Below are positions 39,735 to 45,394 of a stretch of 64,000 nucleotides of DNA, piece by piece (position 1 is the first letter of the stretch; each line of letters begins with the position of its first letter). The position numbers and the translations under genes were made by a program. The DNA is taken from the NCBI GenBank assembly GCA_944323075.1, contig CALURC010000010.1, positions 37,512 to 101,511 on the forward strand, written 5' to 3'. The notes beneath the pieces were generated by a model. The model was not told the DNA's origin. It saw only the letters and a program-made list of their open reading frames with translations, and did not search any database. This DNA comes from an uncultured Alistipes sp. GTDB taxonomy: Bacteria > Bacteroidota > Bacteroidia > Bacteroidales > Rikenellaceae.

Positions 39735-41324
39735 GTGTTTTTAAAACGTACGAAAAAAGACCAATCGGCCCGCAAAGGTATTGGCCGTAAAAAGCTCATC
39801 TGGATCATCATTGCAGCTTTAGCCGTAGGAAGCAGCATCACCATCGGATTAAACAGAATTTATATACAGAGTTCGAGTGACGAATATTGTCAGTCGTGTC
39901 ACATTCATCCGGAAGCAGACAAAAGCTGGAAACTATCGAGTCATCACAACAGCAAAAGCGGGGTCGTAACAGGATGTGCAGAATGTCACCTTCCCCCACG
40001 TGGATCTTTCGACTACTTTAAAGCCAAAGCCAAAACCGGATTGAAGGACATTTGGGGCTATTGGACCAAAGACAGTGCAGATTTTGACTGGGAAAGCAAA
40101 AAACAGCTGGAACATGCCGTAACGATTGTTTATAACGAATCCTGCAAAGAGTGCCACAAACAACTTTTCCCTTCGCGTCTGACCCAAGAGGGAATCACAG
40201 CTCACCTCTACTACGAAGAGAACGAGGAGAAACTCGATCTGCAGTGTATCAGTTGCCACCTCGACGTAGGACACTATGATCCGAATTACCAGCACTCCCA
40301 AATGACAGGCATTCCCCAATCGTCCGAAACAAAAAATGACACACTGTACACCTCCGCAACTACAGTAACCGAGTTTGCTGATTTCACAGAGACCATACCG
40401 GGAACAGCCGTATCCTTTAATATGAAGGCAATTCCAGGAGGTTCATTCACAATGGGTAGCCCTGAAGATGAACCGTTCCGCAAAGAGGATGAAGGTCCTA
40501 CACACACTGTAAATATATCCCCATTCTTTATGGGCGAAACTGAAGTAACATGGGATCAATATTGGGCATTCTACGCCGAAACCATGTCAGAAGGCCGTAC
40601 CCCACCCGCTGTGGTATATGCAAACAACTCGAATCCCGAAGCCGATGCCATCAGTGGCCCGACTCCACCGTTCGGAATTCCAGATCAGGGTTGGGGCGGA
40701 GGCGAACGACCCGCAATCACCATGACCCATTACGCAGCAGAAACATTCTGTCAATGGCTGTCGAAAAAAACAGGTAAAAAATATCGGCTGCCGACTGAAG
40801 CCGAATGGGAATATGCGGTACGAGGCGGTACGCAAACTCCCTATTTCTTTGAGGGTAATCCGAAAAAACTCTCTGATAAAGGATTCTGGCGTAAATTCTT
40901 CGACGCAGACACGACCAATATTGATCGCTACGTCGTGTACAGCAAAAACAGCCAAAACAGGACCCAGGAACCATCGGCCGTTCAAGCCAATCCTTTCGGG
41001 CTAAAAAATATGCTGGGTAATGTATTAGAGTATTGTTCAGACTGGTATGCCGAAGACGCCTACTCTCAATTAACGGATGGAGTGACGGATCCGAAAGGCC
41101 CTGCATCGGGCGAGGAGCATGTTGTACGAGGCGGACAATACTTTGACGATGCTTCTGATCTCCGTTCAGCAGCTCGTGGACATACCGAACACGACAAATG
41201 GCTGAAAACCGATCCGCAGAATCCGAAAAGTATCTGGTGGTATTCCGACATCCGGAGTATCGGATTCCGAGTGGTGTGTGAGCCCATCACAACGGAAACC
41301 CAAACGACACCGACAAACCAATAA
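39735..41324 (+). CDS. Tetraheme NapC/NrfH-like cytochrome c fused to a SUMF1-like domain
   Basis: A 529-residue fusion. The N-terminus has a membrane anchor (about residues 22-42) and then four CxxCH heme sites, at Cys52, Cys81, Cys137 and Cys171, in the arrangement of NapC/NrfH quinol-oxidising cytochromes. From about residue 220 to the end is a formylglycine-generating-enzyme/SUMF1-like domain (IPGGSFTMGSPEDEP, YRLPTEAEWEYAVRGG, IGFRVVC). The active-site cysteine region of true SUMF1 (RYRCAAR) reads DLRSAARG here, so sulfatase-type formylglycine activity is unlikely. Both parts should face the periplasm. Start is GTG. It leads a group with two Tat-type lipoprotein enzymes and may pass electrons from them or to them. 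Confidence 0.83.
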   Translation: MFLKRTKKDQSARKGIGRKKLIWIIIAALAVGSSITIGLNRIYIQSSSDEYCQSCHIHPEADKSWKLSSHHNSKSGVVTGCAECHLPPRGSFDYFKAKAKTGLKDIWGYWTKDSADFDWESKKQLEHAVTIVYNESCKECHKQLFPSRLTQEGITAHLYYEENEEKLDLQCISCHLDVGHYDPNYQHSQMTGIPQSSETKNDTLYTSATTVTEFADFTETIPGTAVSFNMKAIPGGSFTMGSPEDEPFRKEDEGPTHTVNISPFFMGETEVTWDQYWAFYAETMSEGRTPPAVVYANNSNPEADAISGPTPPFGIPDQGWGGGERPAITMTHYAAETFCQWLSKKTGKKYRLPTEAEWEYAVRGGTQTPYFFEGNPKKLSDKGFWRKFFDADTTNIDRYVVYSKNSQNRTQEPSAVQANPFGLKNMLGNVLEYCSDWYAEDAYSQLTDGVTDPKGPASGEEHVVRGGQYFDDASDLRSAARGHTEHDKWLKTDPQNPKSIWWYSDIRSIGFRVVCEPITTETQTTPTNQ

Positions 41325-41342
41325 ACCTAAATATTAACTGAT

Positions 41343-42704
41343 ATGAGCAAAGATAACAAGATTACAAGAAGAGAGTTTCTCTCTTACTCGGCATTGGCAG
41401 GTGTTGCCGGCGCTATGGGATTTTCGCCCCTTTTGACCTCGTGTAAAGGAGACAAAGCAGTAGCTTACACTCCACTGAAAGCTCCCGGAGAATACTATGT
41501 TCCGGAATTGCCCGACAAAGCAGTCGACGGCAAAGAGCTGAAAGCCGGTGTGATCGGTTGCGGCGGGCGTGGCTCGGGTGCTGCCGAAAACTTTTTAAAT
41601 GCAGCCAATGGGGTTACGATTACCGCACTGGGCGATGTATTCGATGACCGTCTGCAAGGTCTTAAAAACTCATTGAAAGAGAAATATCAGATAGACGTCC
41701 CGGCCGATAAATGTTTCACCGGTTTCGATGCCTACCAGAAAGTCATCGACTCGGGCGTTGATGTAGTAATCATTGCTACTCCGCCGTTTTTCCGTCCGGA
41801 ACACTTCAGATATGCCGTTGAAAAAGGGGTACACTGCTTCCTCGAAAAACCGATCTGCGTCGATCCCGAAGGGTACCGCACCATCATGGCGACTGCAAAA
41901 CAGGCTCAGGCCAAAGGCTTATGCGTCGTAACAGGAACGCAACGCCACCACCAACGTTGCTACGTTGAATCCTATAAGAAAGTGCAGGAAGGTTTGATCG
42001 GAGAGATCACCGGAGGAAACGTATATTGGAATCAACCGATGCTGTGGTACCGCAACCGTGAAAACGGGTGGTCGGACATGGAGTGGATGATCCGCGATTG
42101 GGTGAACTGGAAATGGCTCTCTGGAGACCACATCGTAGAACAACACGTACACAACATCGACGTGTTCACATGGTTCTCGGGATACAAACCCGTTCGCGCA
42201 ACCGGTTTCGGAAGCCGCCAACGCCGTGTTACGGGAGATCAATACGATAACTTCAGCGTCGATTTCGAATTTGACAACGGAGTCCATATGCACAGCATGT
42301 GCCGCCAGATTGACGGTTGCGACTCGAATGTCAGTGAGTTCATTCAAGGGACGAAAGGATCATGGAACAGCGTCGATTTCGCGATTCGGGATCTGCAAGG
42401 TAATATCGTATGGCAATACGACGCAGCGAGTGAAGAGGGACGCCAAAACGATCCGTACACGCTCGAACATGTGAACTGGATCTCCTGCATCCGCAACAAC
42501 ACGCCGATCATGCAAGCCGAAGAGACTGCCCTATCGAACATGATGGCCATTATGGGACGTGAGTCGGCCTATACGGGCAAATCCGTAACATGGGACGAAA
42601 TGACCGCATCACCGCTGAACCTCGCTCCGGCAAAACTGGAACTCGGTCCGATGGACATGAAGATCTACACCGTTGCCGTACCGGGAACCGGCCAAGAGAA
42701 ATAA
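41343..42704 (+). CDS. Tat-exported lipoprotein Gfo/Idh/MocA-family oxidoreductase
   Basis: A 453-residue NAD(P)-dependent sugar oxidoreductase-like protein. The N-terminus has the twin-arginine motif RREFLSYS and a hydrophobic stretch ending LLTSC, a lipobox, so it is predicted to be exported folded and lipidated. The Rossmann domain starts AGVIGCGGRGSG; the EKPICVDP motif supplies the family Lys-Pro, and SGDHIVEQHVHNIDVF carries the probable catalytic His/Asp. Family members such as glucose-fructose oxidoreductase keep a tightly bound NADP when exported by Tat. The substrate is unknown. It is 18 bases downstream of the cytochrome fusion. Confidence 0.87.
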   Translation: MSKDNKITRREFLSYSALAGVAGAMGFSPLLTSCKGDKAVAYTPLKAPGEYYVPELPDKAVDGKELKAGVIGCGGRGSGAAENFLNAANGVTITALGDVFDDRLQGLKNSLKEKYQIDVPADKCFTGFDAYQKVIDSGVDVVIIATPPFFRPEHFRYAVEKGVHCFLEKPICVDPEGYRTIMATAKQAQAKGLCVVTGTQRHHQRCYVESYKKVQEGLIGEITGGNVYWNQPMLWYRNRENGWSDMEWMIRDWVNWKWLSGDHIVEQHVHNIDVFTWFSGYKPVRATGFGSRQRRVTGDQYDNFSVDFEFDNGVHMHSMCRQIDGCDSNVSEFIQGTKGSWNSVDFAIRDLQGNIVWQYDAASEEGRQNDPYTLEHVNWISCIRNNTPIMQAEETALSNMMAIMGRESAYTGKSVTWDEMTASPLNLAPAKLELGPMDMKIYTVAVPGTGQEK

Positions 42705-42734
42705 TTTACCGACAATCTAACGGTTGCCAAGCCA

Positions 42735-42770
42735 GAAAACGGGTATAAATCAGGGTTTATACCCGTTTTC
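42735..42770 (+). terminator. Hairpin between the oxidoreductase and cupin genes
   Basis: A perfect 15-bp stem (42735-42749 with 42756-42770, loop tcaggg) lies 30 bases after the oxidoreductase stop and 17 bases before the cupin ATG. It ends in ttttc rather than a long T-run, so it may terminate only in part. Confidence 0.6.
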
Positions 42771-42787
42771 CGGATAAAAACCAAACC

Positions 42788-43252
42788 ATGAAGATCATCG
42801 ACAAAGCCCTACTCGACCGTACCTCGAAGGAGGCGCGAAAAGAGAGTCGCTTACGAAAAAACTATAACTTACACGAGCGCCTCTGCGATCCGGTCAACCG
42901 ATTGCTCAACGCACTTGAGCCCGGGACCTATATCCCGGTACATCGCCACAGCCATCCGGCCAAAGACGAAACCATTATCGTTTTGCGGGGAAGTGTCGTC
43001 TCAGTAATTTTCGATGACGCGGGAAATATCATAGAACGTGTGGAGGTCGATCCGACACATGGGGTATACGGCTTCGATATTCCGGCCGGCCAATGGCACG
43101 GTCTATTGGTCAAGGAGAGCGGAACCGTCGTTTTCGAGGTCAAAAAAGGGCCTTTTACTCCGTTATCGGAAGAGGACATCGCTCCATGGGCACCACGGAC
43201 CGACGATCAGGAGGGAATCGCTCGATACCTGAATCGACTCTCCGAGGAGTAA
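42788..43252 (+). CDS. WbuC-family cupin protein
   Basis: A 154-residue single-domain cupin. The WbuC family is recognised by the N-terminal KIIDKALLDRTSKEAR and RKNYNLHE segments, NALEPGTYIPVHRHSHPAKDE (first cupin motif with the metal-binding HxH) and DIPAGQWHGLLV (second motif His). WbuC genes occur with O-antigen and other sugar-biosynthesis genes; the reaction is not well established. It has no signal peptide, unlike its two neighbours, so it is probably cytoplasmic. It follows a hairpin and precedes the TIM-barrel gene by 36 bases. Confidence 0.82.
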   Translation: MKIIDKALLDRTSKEARKESRLRKNYNLHERLCDPVNRLLNALEPGTYIPVHRHSHPAKDETIIVLRGSVVSVIFDDAGNIIERVEVDPTHGVYGFDIPAGQWHGLLVKESGTVVFEVKKGPFTPLSEEDIAPWAPRTDDQEGIARYLNRLSEE

Positions 43253-43288
43253 TCCATTACAGAAAAATTTCTCAAAACAGATAAAAAC

Positions 43289-44203
43289 ATGAAAAGACGT
43301 GATTTCTTAAAAACATCGCTGCTGAGCGGAGCCGCCATGGCAGTTGCTCCGATGCAGCTATTCACAAGCTGCTCCGATGGCGAAAAAGAGCAAGCGGCAG
43401 CACCCGCTCCCGAACTGAAAATCTCCTTTCAGGAGGGAAATGCCCCGGGAGAGACTCTGGCCGAAAAATTCGACTACATGGAGGCCAACGGAGTCGTAGG
43501 TTTCGAACCGGGAGGCGGAAATCTGGCCAGCAGAGTCGAAGAGCTCAAAAAACTGCTTAACGGCCGCAACATCAAGGTAAGTGCAATTTGCGCCGGATTC
43601 CAGGGATTTATCCTGTCGGAGGACGAAGCCGTACGGCAAGAGTTCGACCGCACGATGCGTGAAATCATCGCTGCTGCCGGCGAGCTGGGATCGACGGGAG
43701 TCATCATGGTACCCGCTTTCAACGCCCAAGTACCGGTTATGCCCCATACGATGGCTACGCGCGACTACCTGATCGAACAACTGCGCCTGCTCGGGGATTA
43801 TGCCGTACAGTGCGGAACCACGGTCATCCTCGAACCGCTGAACCGCAACGAAGCCTTCTACTTGCGCCAAGTGGCCGACGCCGCATCGATTTGCCGCGAT
43901 GCCAACAACGCCGGAGTGAAATGTATGGGTGACTTCTGGCACATGACCTTTGAAGAGACGTCGGACTACGGTGCTTTCTTCTCGGCCGGAGAGTACCTTC
44001 AGCACGTCCACATCGCCAGCCGAGGCACGCGGAACACTCCGGGAGAAGATGGTGAAGTGGACAATTATGTAGAAGGATTTCGGGCGTTGAAGGCCATGAA
44101 TTATCCGAACTATGTCAGCTTCGAATGCGGATGTAAGGGAGACCGGGCACAAAGCATTCCGGCAGCATTGCAACTGATCCGCCAACAATGGGAAATGGCT
44201 TAA
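43289..44203 (+). CDS. Tat-type lipoprotein sugar-phosphate isomerase/epimerase-like TIM barrel
   Basis: A 304-residue protein of the xylose-isomerase-like/hydroxypyruvate-isomerase-like TIM-barrel superfamily. It begins with a twin-arginine motif (KRRDFLKTS) and a lipobox (LFTSC), and the lipidated Cys would be followed by SDGEKE, an acidic stretch like the surface-export signals known for Bacteroidetes lipoproteins. Probable metal ligands are the Glu in VILEPLNRNE, Asp and His in MGDFWHMTFEE, His in HVHIASRG and Glu in YVSFECGC. Such enzymes isomerise or epimerise free or keto sugars. Pairing with an exported Gfo/Idh/MocA enzyme suggests successive steps on one sugar. Confidence 0.83.
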   Translation: MKRRDFLKTSLLSGAAMAVAPMQLFTSCSDGEKEQAAAPAPELKISFQEGNAPGETLAEKFDYMEANGVVGFEPGGGNLASRVEELKKLLNGRNIKVSAICAGFQGFILSEDEAVRQEFDRTMREIIAAAGELGSTGVIMVPAFNAQVPVMPHTMATRDYLIEQLRLLGDYAVQCGTTVILEPLNRNEAFYLRQVADAASICRDANNAGVKCMGDFWHMTFEETSDYGAFFSAGEYLQHVHIASRGTRNTPGEDGEVDNYVEGFRALKAMNYPNYVSFECGCKGDRAQSIPAALQLIRQQWEMA

Positions 44204-44232: not shown

Positions 44233-44272
44233 AAAAAAATAGGAAAATCAAATTATTTTCCTATTTTTTTTG
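44233..44272 (+). terminator. Rho-independent terminator after the TIM-barrel gene
   Basis: A perfect 16-bp stem (44233-44248 with 44255-44270, loop caaatt) ends in a run of eight T. It lies 29 bases after the stop codon. Confidence 0.85.
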
Positions 44273-44280
44273 TATCTTTC
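44273..44280 (+). promoter_or_regulatory. Possible −7 element for the unknown lipoprotein gene
   Basis: TATCTTTC differs from TAnnTTTG at the last base and lies 25 bases before the ATG at 44306. The match is weak. Confidence 0.3.
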
Positions 44281-44305
44281 GAGAAACTACTTAAAACTAC
44301 GCGCT

Positions 44306-45394
44306 ATGGAAAAGATTACTTTTCTATTTTTAAATTTTCTTTTATTCGGTAGTTTCTTTTCATGTAAAACTGACAACGCCGGAGAAATTAAAGAAGCGAT
44401 ACACTTCGACACCACGTACCTCTCCTGTGACCAAGGGATGGAGACCGCCATCCTCTTAAATGACACATTATATGTCTTCTCACCCAGAGTATCGAGCTCT
44501 CTTGGTCAAAGCGACACAGTGCAAAAGATGTACTGTTTTAACAAACAAGGTGAAAAATTATTTGAGATAGTCTTAGACAGCCTGTTTCATAACTACTATT
44601 ACCTCTTTCCTGCCAACAACCAACTCTATGCCTCTGTTCGGTTAAATAACGAGGACGCAACCCTCCGATTCGATCCATCTCTGCACAAATGGATTCCTGC
44701 CGAGGGGGTAAAACCTGCTCCTTTGTTCGAAGACGAAAACTACATCGTCACCTCAAGCAGCAGCGGAGAATGGGGTGGCACGATCTTTCTCACCTCGAAG
44801 CAGGACGGAAAAACCTACGAAGGGGCATCTTTGAGTCCGATACAAGTAGTGAAAAAAGACGGAGTCTACTACATTTCGAACGCACTTGAACACATGAGTG
44901 GCCATAGCACGATATATGCGATCGAGGATCCGCTAAAAATGGCCGTTTTCAAGAACGATCGTCCAACCGCCGATAGTCTGATCCATCTCCGGGAATCCAC
45001 ATCAACACAAGGCCTAAAAATGATCGCAGATTATGGAGCATACAAAAAGCCGACAGGTCAATTTACGGAACCGGCAGGTGATACCGTTTACGTAATGCAA
45101 CCCGCCATGCTATTGAGTTCGTTTATCCACAAAAATGATCTCTACTACATATACGCTGACACGGCCGTCCACATTTTCCGGATCAATCCAACCTCCGAAT
45201 CGACTGTAACCGATATACAAGACCCTCGTGTTGAAATACTCTACACATTCACAACTCCGATGAGTGCAAGTCCGTGGCTCAAATATAGTCAGACCAACTA
45301 TCACCAACTCTTTTTCCTTACTGGCGAAGGTGGAGCCATCATGGAAGTTGTTCCGGATGCGATTTATCTTCATACACTCGTCAATAAAAAGTAA
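44306..45394 (+). CDS. Uncharacterised lipoprotein
   Basis: A 362-residue protein that I do not recognise. The N-terminus, MEKITFLFLNFLLFGSFFSC, is a lipoprotein signal with Cys at residue 20, so it is predicted to be membrane-attached in the envelope. The rest is rich in aromatic, Asp and Thr residues in short beta-strand-like stretches (DTLYVFSPRV, YCFNKQGEKLFEIV, DAIYLHTL), which suggests a beta-propeller-like fold, but no repeat is clear. An in-frame earlier ATG at 44270 overlaps the upstream terminator and is not preferred. Terminators on both sides make it a single-gene unit. Confidence 0.7.
   Translation: MEKITFLFLNFLLFGSFFSCKTDNAGEIKEAIHFDTTYLSCDQGMETAILLNDTLYVFSPRVSSSLGQSDTVQKMYCFNKQGEKLFEIVLDSLFHNYYYLFPANNQLYASVRLNNEDATLRFDPSLHKWIPAEGVKPAPLFEDENYIVTSSSSGEWGGTIFLTSKQDGKTYEGASLSPIQVVKKDGVYYISNALEHMSGHSTIYAIEDPLKMAVFKNDRPTADSLIHLRESTSTQGLKMIADYGAYKKPTGQFTEPAGDTVYVMQPAMLLSSFIHKNDLYYIYADTAVHIFRINPTSESTVTDIQDPRVEILYTFTTPMSASPWLKYSQTNYHQLFFLTGEGGAIMEVVPDAIYLHTLVNKK

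Follow-up and report, generated by a model that had tools for sequence, protein, structure and literature searches.

Gut Bacteroidales are already known to oxidize glycosides at C3 in the periplasm. Passages of PMC11300592 describe the Bacteroides thetaiotaomicron genes BT2156-BT2160 as a glycoside 3-oxidation pathway in which BT2158 is a periplasmic glycoside 3-dehydrogenase; these passages name no acceptor for exported NAD-type enzymes, and the word cytochrome is absent from the main text. According to passages of PMC10434189 and PMC11501099, BT2156-58 are listed in an iron-stimulon table, and deletions of BT2157 and BT2158 grew normally on raffinose-family sugars, results that have no bearing on the fusion described below. 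For Caulobacter, parts of PMC9007349 describe the LacABC lactose 3-dehydrogenase as a membrane-bound system for periplasmic disaccharide 3-oxidation, with a proposed DUF1080 hydrolase. Here we describe a locus at positions 39735-44203 of a 64,000-nucleotide stretch of Alistipes-like DNA (the window), in which a protein that joins an NrfH-type tetraheme cytochrome to a formylglycine-generating enzyme (FGE)-like domain is encoded ahead of an exported Gfo/Idh/MocA oxidoreductase (Gfo) and a TIM-barrel lipoprotein. As far as those passages describe the known systems, the locus resembles BT2156-BT2160 in that a Gfo/Idh/MocA enzyme of Bacteroidales is exported and accompanied by TIM-type and DUF1080 partners, although its Gfo lies outside the curated BT_2158 family, and in its proposed role it resembles LacABC, with membrane-bound periplasmic 3-oxidation and a putative DUF1080 hydrolase. 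LacA, however, belongs to the GMC-type flavoenzymes and has a cytochrome subunit, whereas the window combines an NAD-type Gfo with an NrfH-type tetraheme protein. Stepwise redox cleavage of glycosides by gut bacteria was reportedly also the subject of a 2024 Nature paper. Among open-licence papers, our literature searches returned none that pairs NrfH with formylglycine-generating, and none among the matches listed contained MocA and formylglycine together or the NapC phrase of the fusion query.

Four open reading frames (ORFs), all on the + strand and 3' of ATP synthase genes, were confirmed at this locus. Their order, a cytochrome followed by Gfo, a cupin and a TIM barrel, and their families are those given in an initial annotation made from the sequence. 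That annotation left unnamed the second, FGE-like domain of the cytochrome protein, which proves to be the key part. The closest named relative is Candidatus Alistipes merdigallinarum (96% over the fusion). The features are as follows.

39735..41324, + strand: NrfH-like tetraheme cytochrome and FGE-like (SUMF1-fold) fusion, 529 aa, with a GTG start and an N-terminal membrane helix (Pfam, AlphaFold2)
39789..40286, + strand: NapC/NirT (NrfH) domain of the fusion, residues 19-184, with four CxxCH motifs (Cys 52, 81, 137, 171)
40428..41192, + strand: FGE-like domain of the fusion, residues 232-486, FGE cysteine pair missing (RGGQYFDDASDLRSAAR)
40644..40664, + strand: loop D304-A-I-S-G-P-T310, which keeps register with the flavinylation motif of ApbE, Pro replacing Ala
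41211..41240, + strand: signature DPQxPKSxWW, residues 493-502, which marks this FGE subfamily
41343..42704, + strand: Gfo/Idh/MocA oxidoreductase, a lipoprotein with twin-arginine translocation (Tat) motif at residues 9-14, lipobox Cys34, Asp98, EKP Lys169 and His270
42735..42770, + strand: perfect 16-bp hairpin between the Gfo and cupin genes (-28.6 kcal/mol for an 86-nt stretch, z -4.8, 0/200 shuffles)
42788..43252, + strand: WbuC-family cupin, accessory (TIGR04366, 5.5e-47)
43289..44203, + strand: AP_endonuc_2 TIM-barrel lipoprotein, Tat motif at residues 3-8 and lipobox Cys28

The hairpin is not followed by a T run and may be an attenuator or a processing site.

In order to compare neighbourhoods we gathered 98 fusion-carrying loci, one search for which kept the best 80, by score, of 192 confirmed relatives; each locus was found through its fusion, and 91 were unique once 7 duplicates had been dropped. 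Core gene counts were kept apart from the tallies of a crude ORF filter, which lost known genes at some loci. Gfo is the next same-strand gene after the fusion in 87/91 unique loci (median gap 41 bp), and the arrangement is thus far from chance; the comparison of related genomes that had been named as a possible refutation leaves the fusion beside Gfo. Where at least 2.8 kb was available (81 loci), 74 have the TIM gene 3' and on the same strand. The cupin, on the other hand, is present in only 15/91 loci, which rules it out as a core member: the core of the module is fusion-Gfo-TIM with the cupin as an accessory, and the four-gene module first proposed shrinks to three. DUF1080 3-keto-disaccharide hydrolases are encoded inside the cluster at L044 and L081, and ResB-type and CcsA-type cytochrome-c maturation genes lie 3' of TIM in 17/91 and 16/91 loci, respectively (Pfam-named in L055).

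The departures from this arrangement are few. L039, L041 and L042 carry a fusion without a nearby Gfo, and L081 has Gfo and a DUF1080-ThuA protein upstream of the fusion; in all four cases the genome still has a Gfo (elsewhere in G016, G020 and G035, upstream in L081). A DUF2961 lipoprotein takes the place of Gfo after the fusion in L041 (5776-7419, PF11175 match) and L042 (2723-4363, by similarity), with Gfo and TIM located elsewhere. TIM is divergent in L046 (Pfam), and a TIM-like gene, recognised by weak similarity or by eye, is on the opposite strand in L047 and L048.

The same association was seen in whole genomes, for which we used two partly overlapping samples, 61 relatives and 247 genomes of the order. 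The Gfo profile was applied with a single, untuned cut-off of 1e-60, around which the gap is wide, as the best match fell below 1e-150 in each positive genome and stayed short of 1e-60 in all others. Of the 61 relatives, 50 had some match to the fusion (E <=0.001), full-length in 19 and confined to a single domain in the other 31, and Gfo occurred in the identical 19/61 genomes as the full-length fusion (Fisher 3e-16). With a fusion cut-off of 1e-100, the 247-genome sample contained the fusion in 28 genomes, Gfo in 29 and both in 28. The 19 carriers among the relatives all encode TatC (31/42 others) and DUF1080 (13/42 others), and ResB is found in 18/19 (20/42 others); the window genome encodes TatC and has a ResB match. 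A menaquinone marker, either PF02621 or MenD over its cut-off, was present in 16/19 carriers, the window genome included with two PF02621 matches. Its best MenD match is below the cut-off, and MenD was set aside in favour of PF02621 as the marker there.

The window genome has a single fusion as against three exported-type Gfo paralogues. One of the two further paralogues (L129) lies beside a cytoplasmic-type Gfo and TIM and the other (L130) near another Gfo, and window-type paralogues also cluster with DUF1080 and ThuA (L148; L135 by eye). By the crude ORF filter, a cytoplasmic-type Gfo is found within the stretch in 25/91 fusion loci.

We place the module, as a putative case, with 3-keto-type sugar oxidation by exported enzymes, here with an unusual redox partner; the underlying observation is sound and stronger than first stated. 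At the level of genes and evolution the association with electron transport is well supported, and as chemistry it is unproven. That a quinone-reactive cytochrome is tied to the pathway, as had been suggested, therefore holds as a conserved association, with the direction of electron flow still a matter of interpretation. To the more specific reading, that the operon carries out extracytoplasmic sugar oxidation and that the fusion links exported NAD-bound 3-keto-type dehydrogenases to menaquinone, we give about an even chance. The steps that we infer are these. The Gfo lipoprotein would be exported folded by Tat, probably carrying bound NAD, and would oxidize its substrate, a sugar or glycoside, with C3 the likeliest position, after which the TIM-barrel lipoprotein would isomerize the keto product or cleave it. 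Anchored in the membrane, the tetraheme-FGE fusion would serve as the dedicated redox partner of Gfo and of the exported Gfo paralogues, touching Gfo through its FGE-like domain and passing the electrons on to menaquinone. Oxidation of sugars by NAD is uphill, and a drain to menaquinone would pull this otherwise unfavourable reaction in anaerobic Bacteroidales. Since the fusion is present almost exactly where the Gfo subfamily is, it offers a concrete, testable acceptor candidate. If the proposal is true, envelope sugar breakdown would be joined to menaquinone respiration, and a function would be suggested for an FGE-like subfamily so far named only sulfatase-modifying-factor-like in the libraries used.

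Several observations weigh against this proposal. One genome (G195) has Gfo without the fusion. The sequences behind the Gfo profile came from fusion-bearing loci, and co-occurrence therefore partly reflects transfer and loss of the operon. Two carriers (G050, G059) are without a clear menaquinone marker and a third (G047) has a partial MenD below the cut-off. The module has no annotated flavin, nor any other annotated switch between hydride and single-electron transfer. Quinol oxidation, the opposite direction, is the usual reaction of NrfH relatives. Finally, for the BT_2158 family of glycoside 3-dehydrogenases (NF058561) the window Gfo scores 26 bits, far under the curated cut-off of 750, and membership in that family is ruled out.

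The Gfo itself has the GFO_IDH_MocA Pfam domains with the Rossmann motif, EKP lysine, catalytic His and C-terminal domain all present. Its signal reads RREFLS...LLTSC and that of TIM reads RRDFLK...LFTSC, so that the Tat and lipobox motifs earlier reported for both proteins are there; by regular expressions, as distinct from a signal-peptide predictor, a Tat-like motif is found in 85/85 Gfo and 75/76 TIM relatives and a lipobox in 82/85 and 63/76, respectively. Asp98, an acidic residue past strand 2, is invariant. Since an acidic residue at this position is typical of NAD use, it argues for NAD over NADP; the bound NAD(P) of the initial annotation can thus be kept as an NAD-binding fold, with NADP the less suitable half of the pair. 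The AlphaFold2 model of Gfo (mean predicted local distance difference test score, pLDDT, 87.6) matches the folds of inositol dehydrogenases, glucose-fructose oxidoreductase (GFOR, 1ofg) and GH109 (6t2b). This resemblance raises the question of whether Gfo could run a redox-neutral cycle on tightly bound NAD, as GFOR and GH109 do, with the fusion merely rescuing enzyme stranded with NADH. Both folds are matched among many others, and the stretch between the lipobox and the Rossmann fold (residues 41-65) has a confident model from roughly residue 41 onward, without helix or strand, which may also suit such a cycle. Near-obligate co-occurrence with the fusion exceeds what occasional rescue predicts, however, and GFOR and GH109 are not known to need such a partner; we consider this explanation rather unlikely.

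The TIM barrel also bears on the chemistry. It matches Pfam AP_endonuc_2, and the residue pattern by which sugar epimerases bind metal is retained (E in EPLNR, D and H in GDFWHM, H, E), with the ligand roles assigned on our assumption that they follow D-psicose 3-epimerase. Its closest solved relative is 3kws, a putative sugar isomerase from Parabacteroides distasonis, a species in which contigs with the module also occur, and next is 6wn6 (8e-29), a 3-keto-D-glucoside 4-epimerase that is its closest characterised relative and that we take to be YcjR of the E. coli YcjQRS system. In that system the TIM protein is paired with Gfo enzymes, is cytoplasmic and is not known to work with a cytochrome. 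This relationship supports 3-keto chemistry for the window TIM and, along with DUF1080 in the cluster and in 19/19 carriers, lends weight to the tie to 3-keto sugars suggested in the initial annotation.

Turning to the cytochrome, the fusion matches Cytochrom_NNT (PF03264) at 3.4e-24, all 92 fused sequences have four CxxCH motifs, and the AlphaFold2 model of the whole protein (mean pLDDT 77.5) places a helix at residues 18-46. The only sequence match of this domain in PDB (E <=0.01) is NrfH 2j7a (2.6e-4), presumably from D. vulgaris. The fusion shares with NrfH/NapC quinol dehydrogenases the N-terminal helix, the four CxxCH motifs and the aligned Lys82 and Asp89 of NrfH, residues presumed to act in the quinol site; the corresponding Lys98 and Asp105 are invariant in 92 sequences. 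It differs from NrfH in the attached FGE-like domain, in a His after the first heme motif and in the lack of a partner: NrfA is unmatched in 17/19 carriers including the window genome (G043 is positive and G058 has a match below cut-off). A reading as NrfHA nitrite reductase is ruled out, as no NrfA match was found in the window genome, and the NrfH equivalog TIGR03153 is also below its cut-off (69 of 134 bits). The heme-1 motif, CxxCHxM in NrfH, is CxxCHxH in 92/92 fused sequences, with His58 at the position of heme-1 Met49, whereas Met is kept in 7/7 stand-alone NrfH proteins of relatives, each of which is followed by a gene for a multiheme protein. This Met-to-His swap may tune heme 1.

That the domain keeps Lys and Asp where a quinol dehydrogenase has them, and that characterised NrfH and NapC proteins oxidize quinol, could be accommodated if electrons ran the other way: the fusion would then carry them from menaquinol to a keto sugar, or would hold exported Gfo in its reduced state. 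Menaquinol (about -74 mV) is, however, poorly placed to reduce NAD (about -320 mV), and the substrates of the DUF1080 hydrolases, as of the 3-keto-glucoside epimerase related to TIM, are sugars that have already been oxidized. We therefore regard reverse flow as distinctly unlikely.

The FGE-like domain resides in the same 529-aa protein and matches Pfam FGE-sulfatase (PF03781) at 7.8e-41. Its top structural match is PvdO, followed by FGEs, with which it shares the SUMF1 fold. The family name, sulfatase-modifying factor, would suggest that the fusion is a maturation factor, such as a sulfatase-activating FGE, that merely travels with Gfo. The cysteine pair to which we ascribe FGE catalysis, located after RGG/KGG, is missing, as the window segment RGGQYFDDASDLRSAAR has no Cys, and an Asp stands where FGEs have the Cys that follows GGSFL. 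This rules out identification as a formylglycine-generating or sulfatase-maturation enzyme. The strict co-occurrence with Gfo also speaks against a maturation factor, and we disfavour that explanation as very remote.

The cytochrome is not the constant companion of Gfo. In a sample of 296 genomes of the phylum we found, besides the window genome, 26 matches that comprise the FGE-like domain only (profile start 174 to 213) without a cytochrome, and the cytochrome part was found in Bacteroidales only among the genomes sampled. We examined 12 of these 26 stand-alone loci, the best 11 and one more. An exported-type Gfo adjoins 9 of them, a TIM of another subfamily is present in 4 and DUF1080 in 1. 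Since stand-alone forms without a cytochrome mostly adjoin Gfo, the FGE-like domain is the wider Gfo partner, and the wider unit across Bacteroidota is an FGE-like protein plus an exported Gfo; the emphasis earlier placed on the cytochrome as the new element is accordingly valid for Bacteroidales and shifts to the FGE-like domain in the phylum. The DPQxPKSxWW signature has D, P, Q, P, S, W and W in 92/92 fused sequences, with Lys in 89 and Gln in 3; the DPQ-WW motif with Lys or Arg is found in 12/12 stand-alone sequences and in 0/8 other Bacteroidales FGE-domain stretches. In a tree rooted on one of these eight, the fused clade has support of 0.973, the stand-alone clade 0.998 and both together 0.999. 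The simplest history that we infer is that Bacteroidales acquired the NrfH part once, the tree alone being compatible with loss elsewhere; contact with the Gfo step would then be made by the FGE-like domain across a wider range of bacteria, and the NrfH-type cytochrome would probably have joined it later. In L168 and L169, the stand-alone FGE-like gene lies 5' of a planctomycete-type cytochrome cluster (PSCyt1, DUF1549, DUF1553; Pfam for L168).

These stand-alone relatives bear on the possibility that the FGE-like domain is itself a PvdO-like enzyme that oxidizes the sugar or the Gfo product, with hemes as acceptor in Bacteroidales and oxygen or another acceptor where it stands alone, and Gfo catalysing another step of the pathway. 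PvdO, named dihydropyoverdine dehydrogenase and called a dehydrogenase by NCBIfam, is the best structural match of the window domain and the best PDB match of L173, the one stand-alone homologue tested; two loops are common to stand-alone and fused forms, and Gfo adjoins 9/12 stand-alone loci as noted above. Against this, the score for the PvdO equivalog NF051459 is far under its curated cut-off (98 of 500 bits), and we identified no metal or cofactor site. Unlike PvdO and FGEs, the domain has no FGE Cys pair, carries its own signature loops and is fused to a heme protein. We judge an enzymatic role of this kind to be unlikely.

A covalent flavin on the FGE-like domain could supply the missing electron switch. 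According to its motif section, PMC12052999 gives the ApbE flavinylation motif as D-x-x-[S/T]-G-A-[S/T] and describes no acceptance of Pro by ApbE. In the loop D304-T310, D, G and T are present in 92/92 sequences and Pro in 90/92; the motif is complete only in L081 and near-complete in L046, both of which read GAT. An ApbE gene lies within the stretch at 5/12 stand-alone loci (Pfam confirms 4 of 5) and at 2/91 fused loci, L096 and L124 (the latter Pfam-confirmed). The flavin reading is weakened because Pro occupies the position in 90/92 sequences, stand-alone forms have also lost the Gly, the modelled loop 309-321 is below pLDDT 50 in the AlphaFold2 structure, and ApbE is near only 2/91 fused loci. 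Two flavinylation papers do not mention Gfo in their main text, FGE-sulfatase being absent from one and FGE from the other. We thus consider such a flavin possible but speculative. It is improbable, in our estimate, that the domain is a redox enzyme with a cofactor, perhaps ApbE-attached flavin mononucleotide at Thr310, which would take two electrons from the NAD of Gfo and release them singly to the tetraheme part and menaquinone, stand-alone domains using another acceptor and Bacteroidales having rewired an FGE-fold oxidase to anaerobic respiration through fusion to NrfH.

Other genes recur near the module. By the crude ORF filter, a gene for a RIC-like di-iron protein follows TIM in 33/91 loci (e.g., L067 12947-14231; TIGR03652 below cut-off) and a LuxR-type regulator gene does so in 29/91, and the two may sense redox or nitric oxide. 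A GH2 beta-galactosidase gene is directly 5' of the fusion in 10 loci (Pfam for L068, 5638-8733). Look-alikes of cytochrome bd oxidase subunits, recognised by eye, lie near the fusion or Gfo in L046 (10688-13383) and L149 (26-2228). In the window itself, a lipoprotein-like ORF of 374 aa without a Pfam match (44270-45394) adjoins the module and is kept in the nearest relative.

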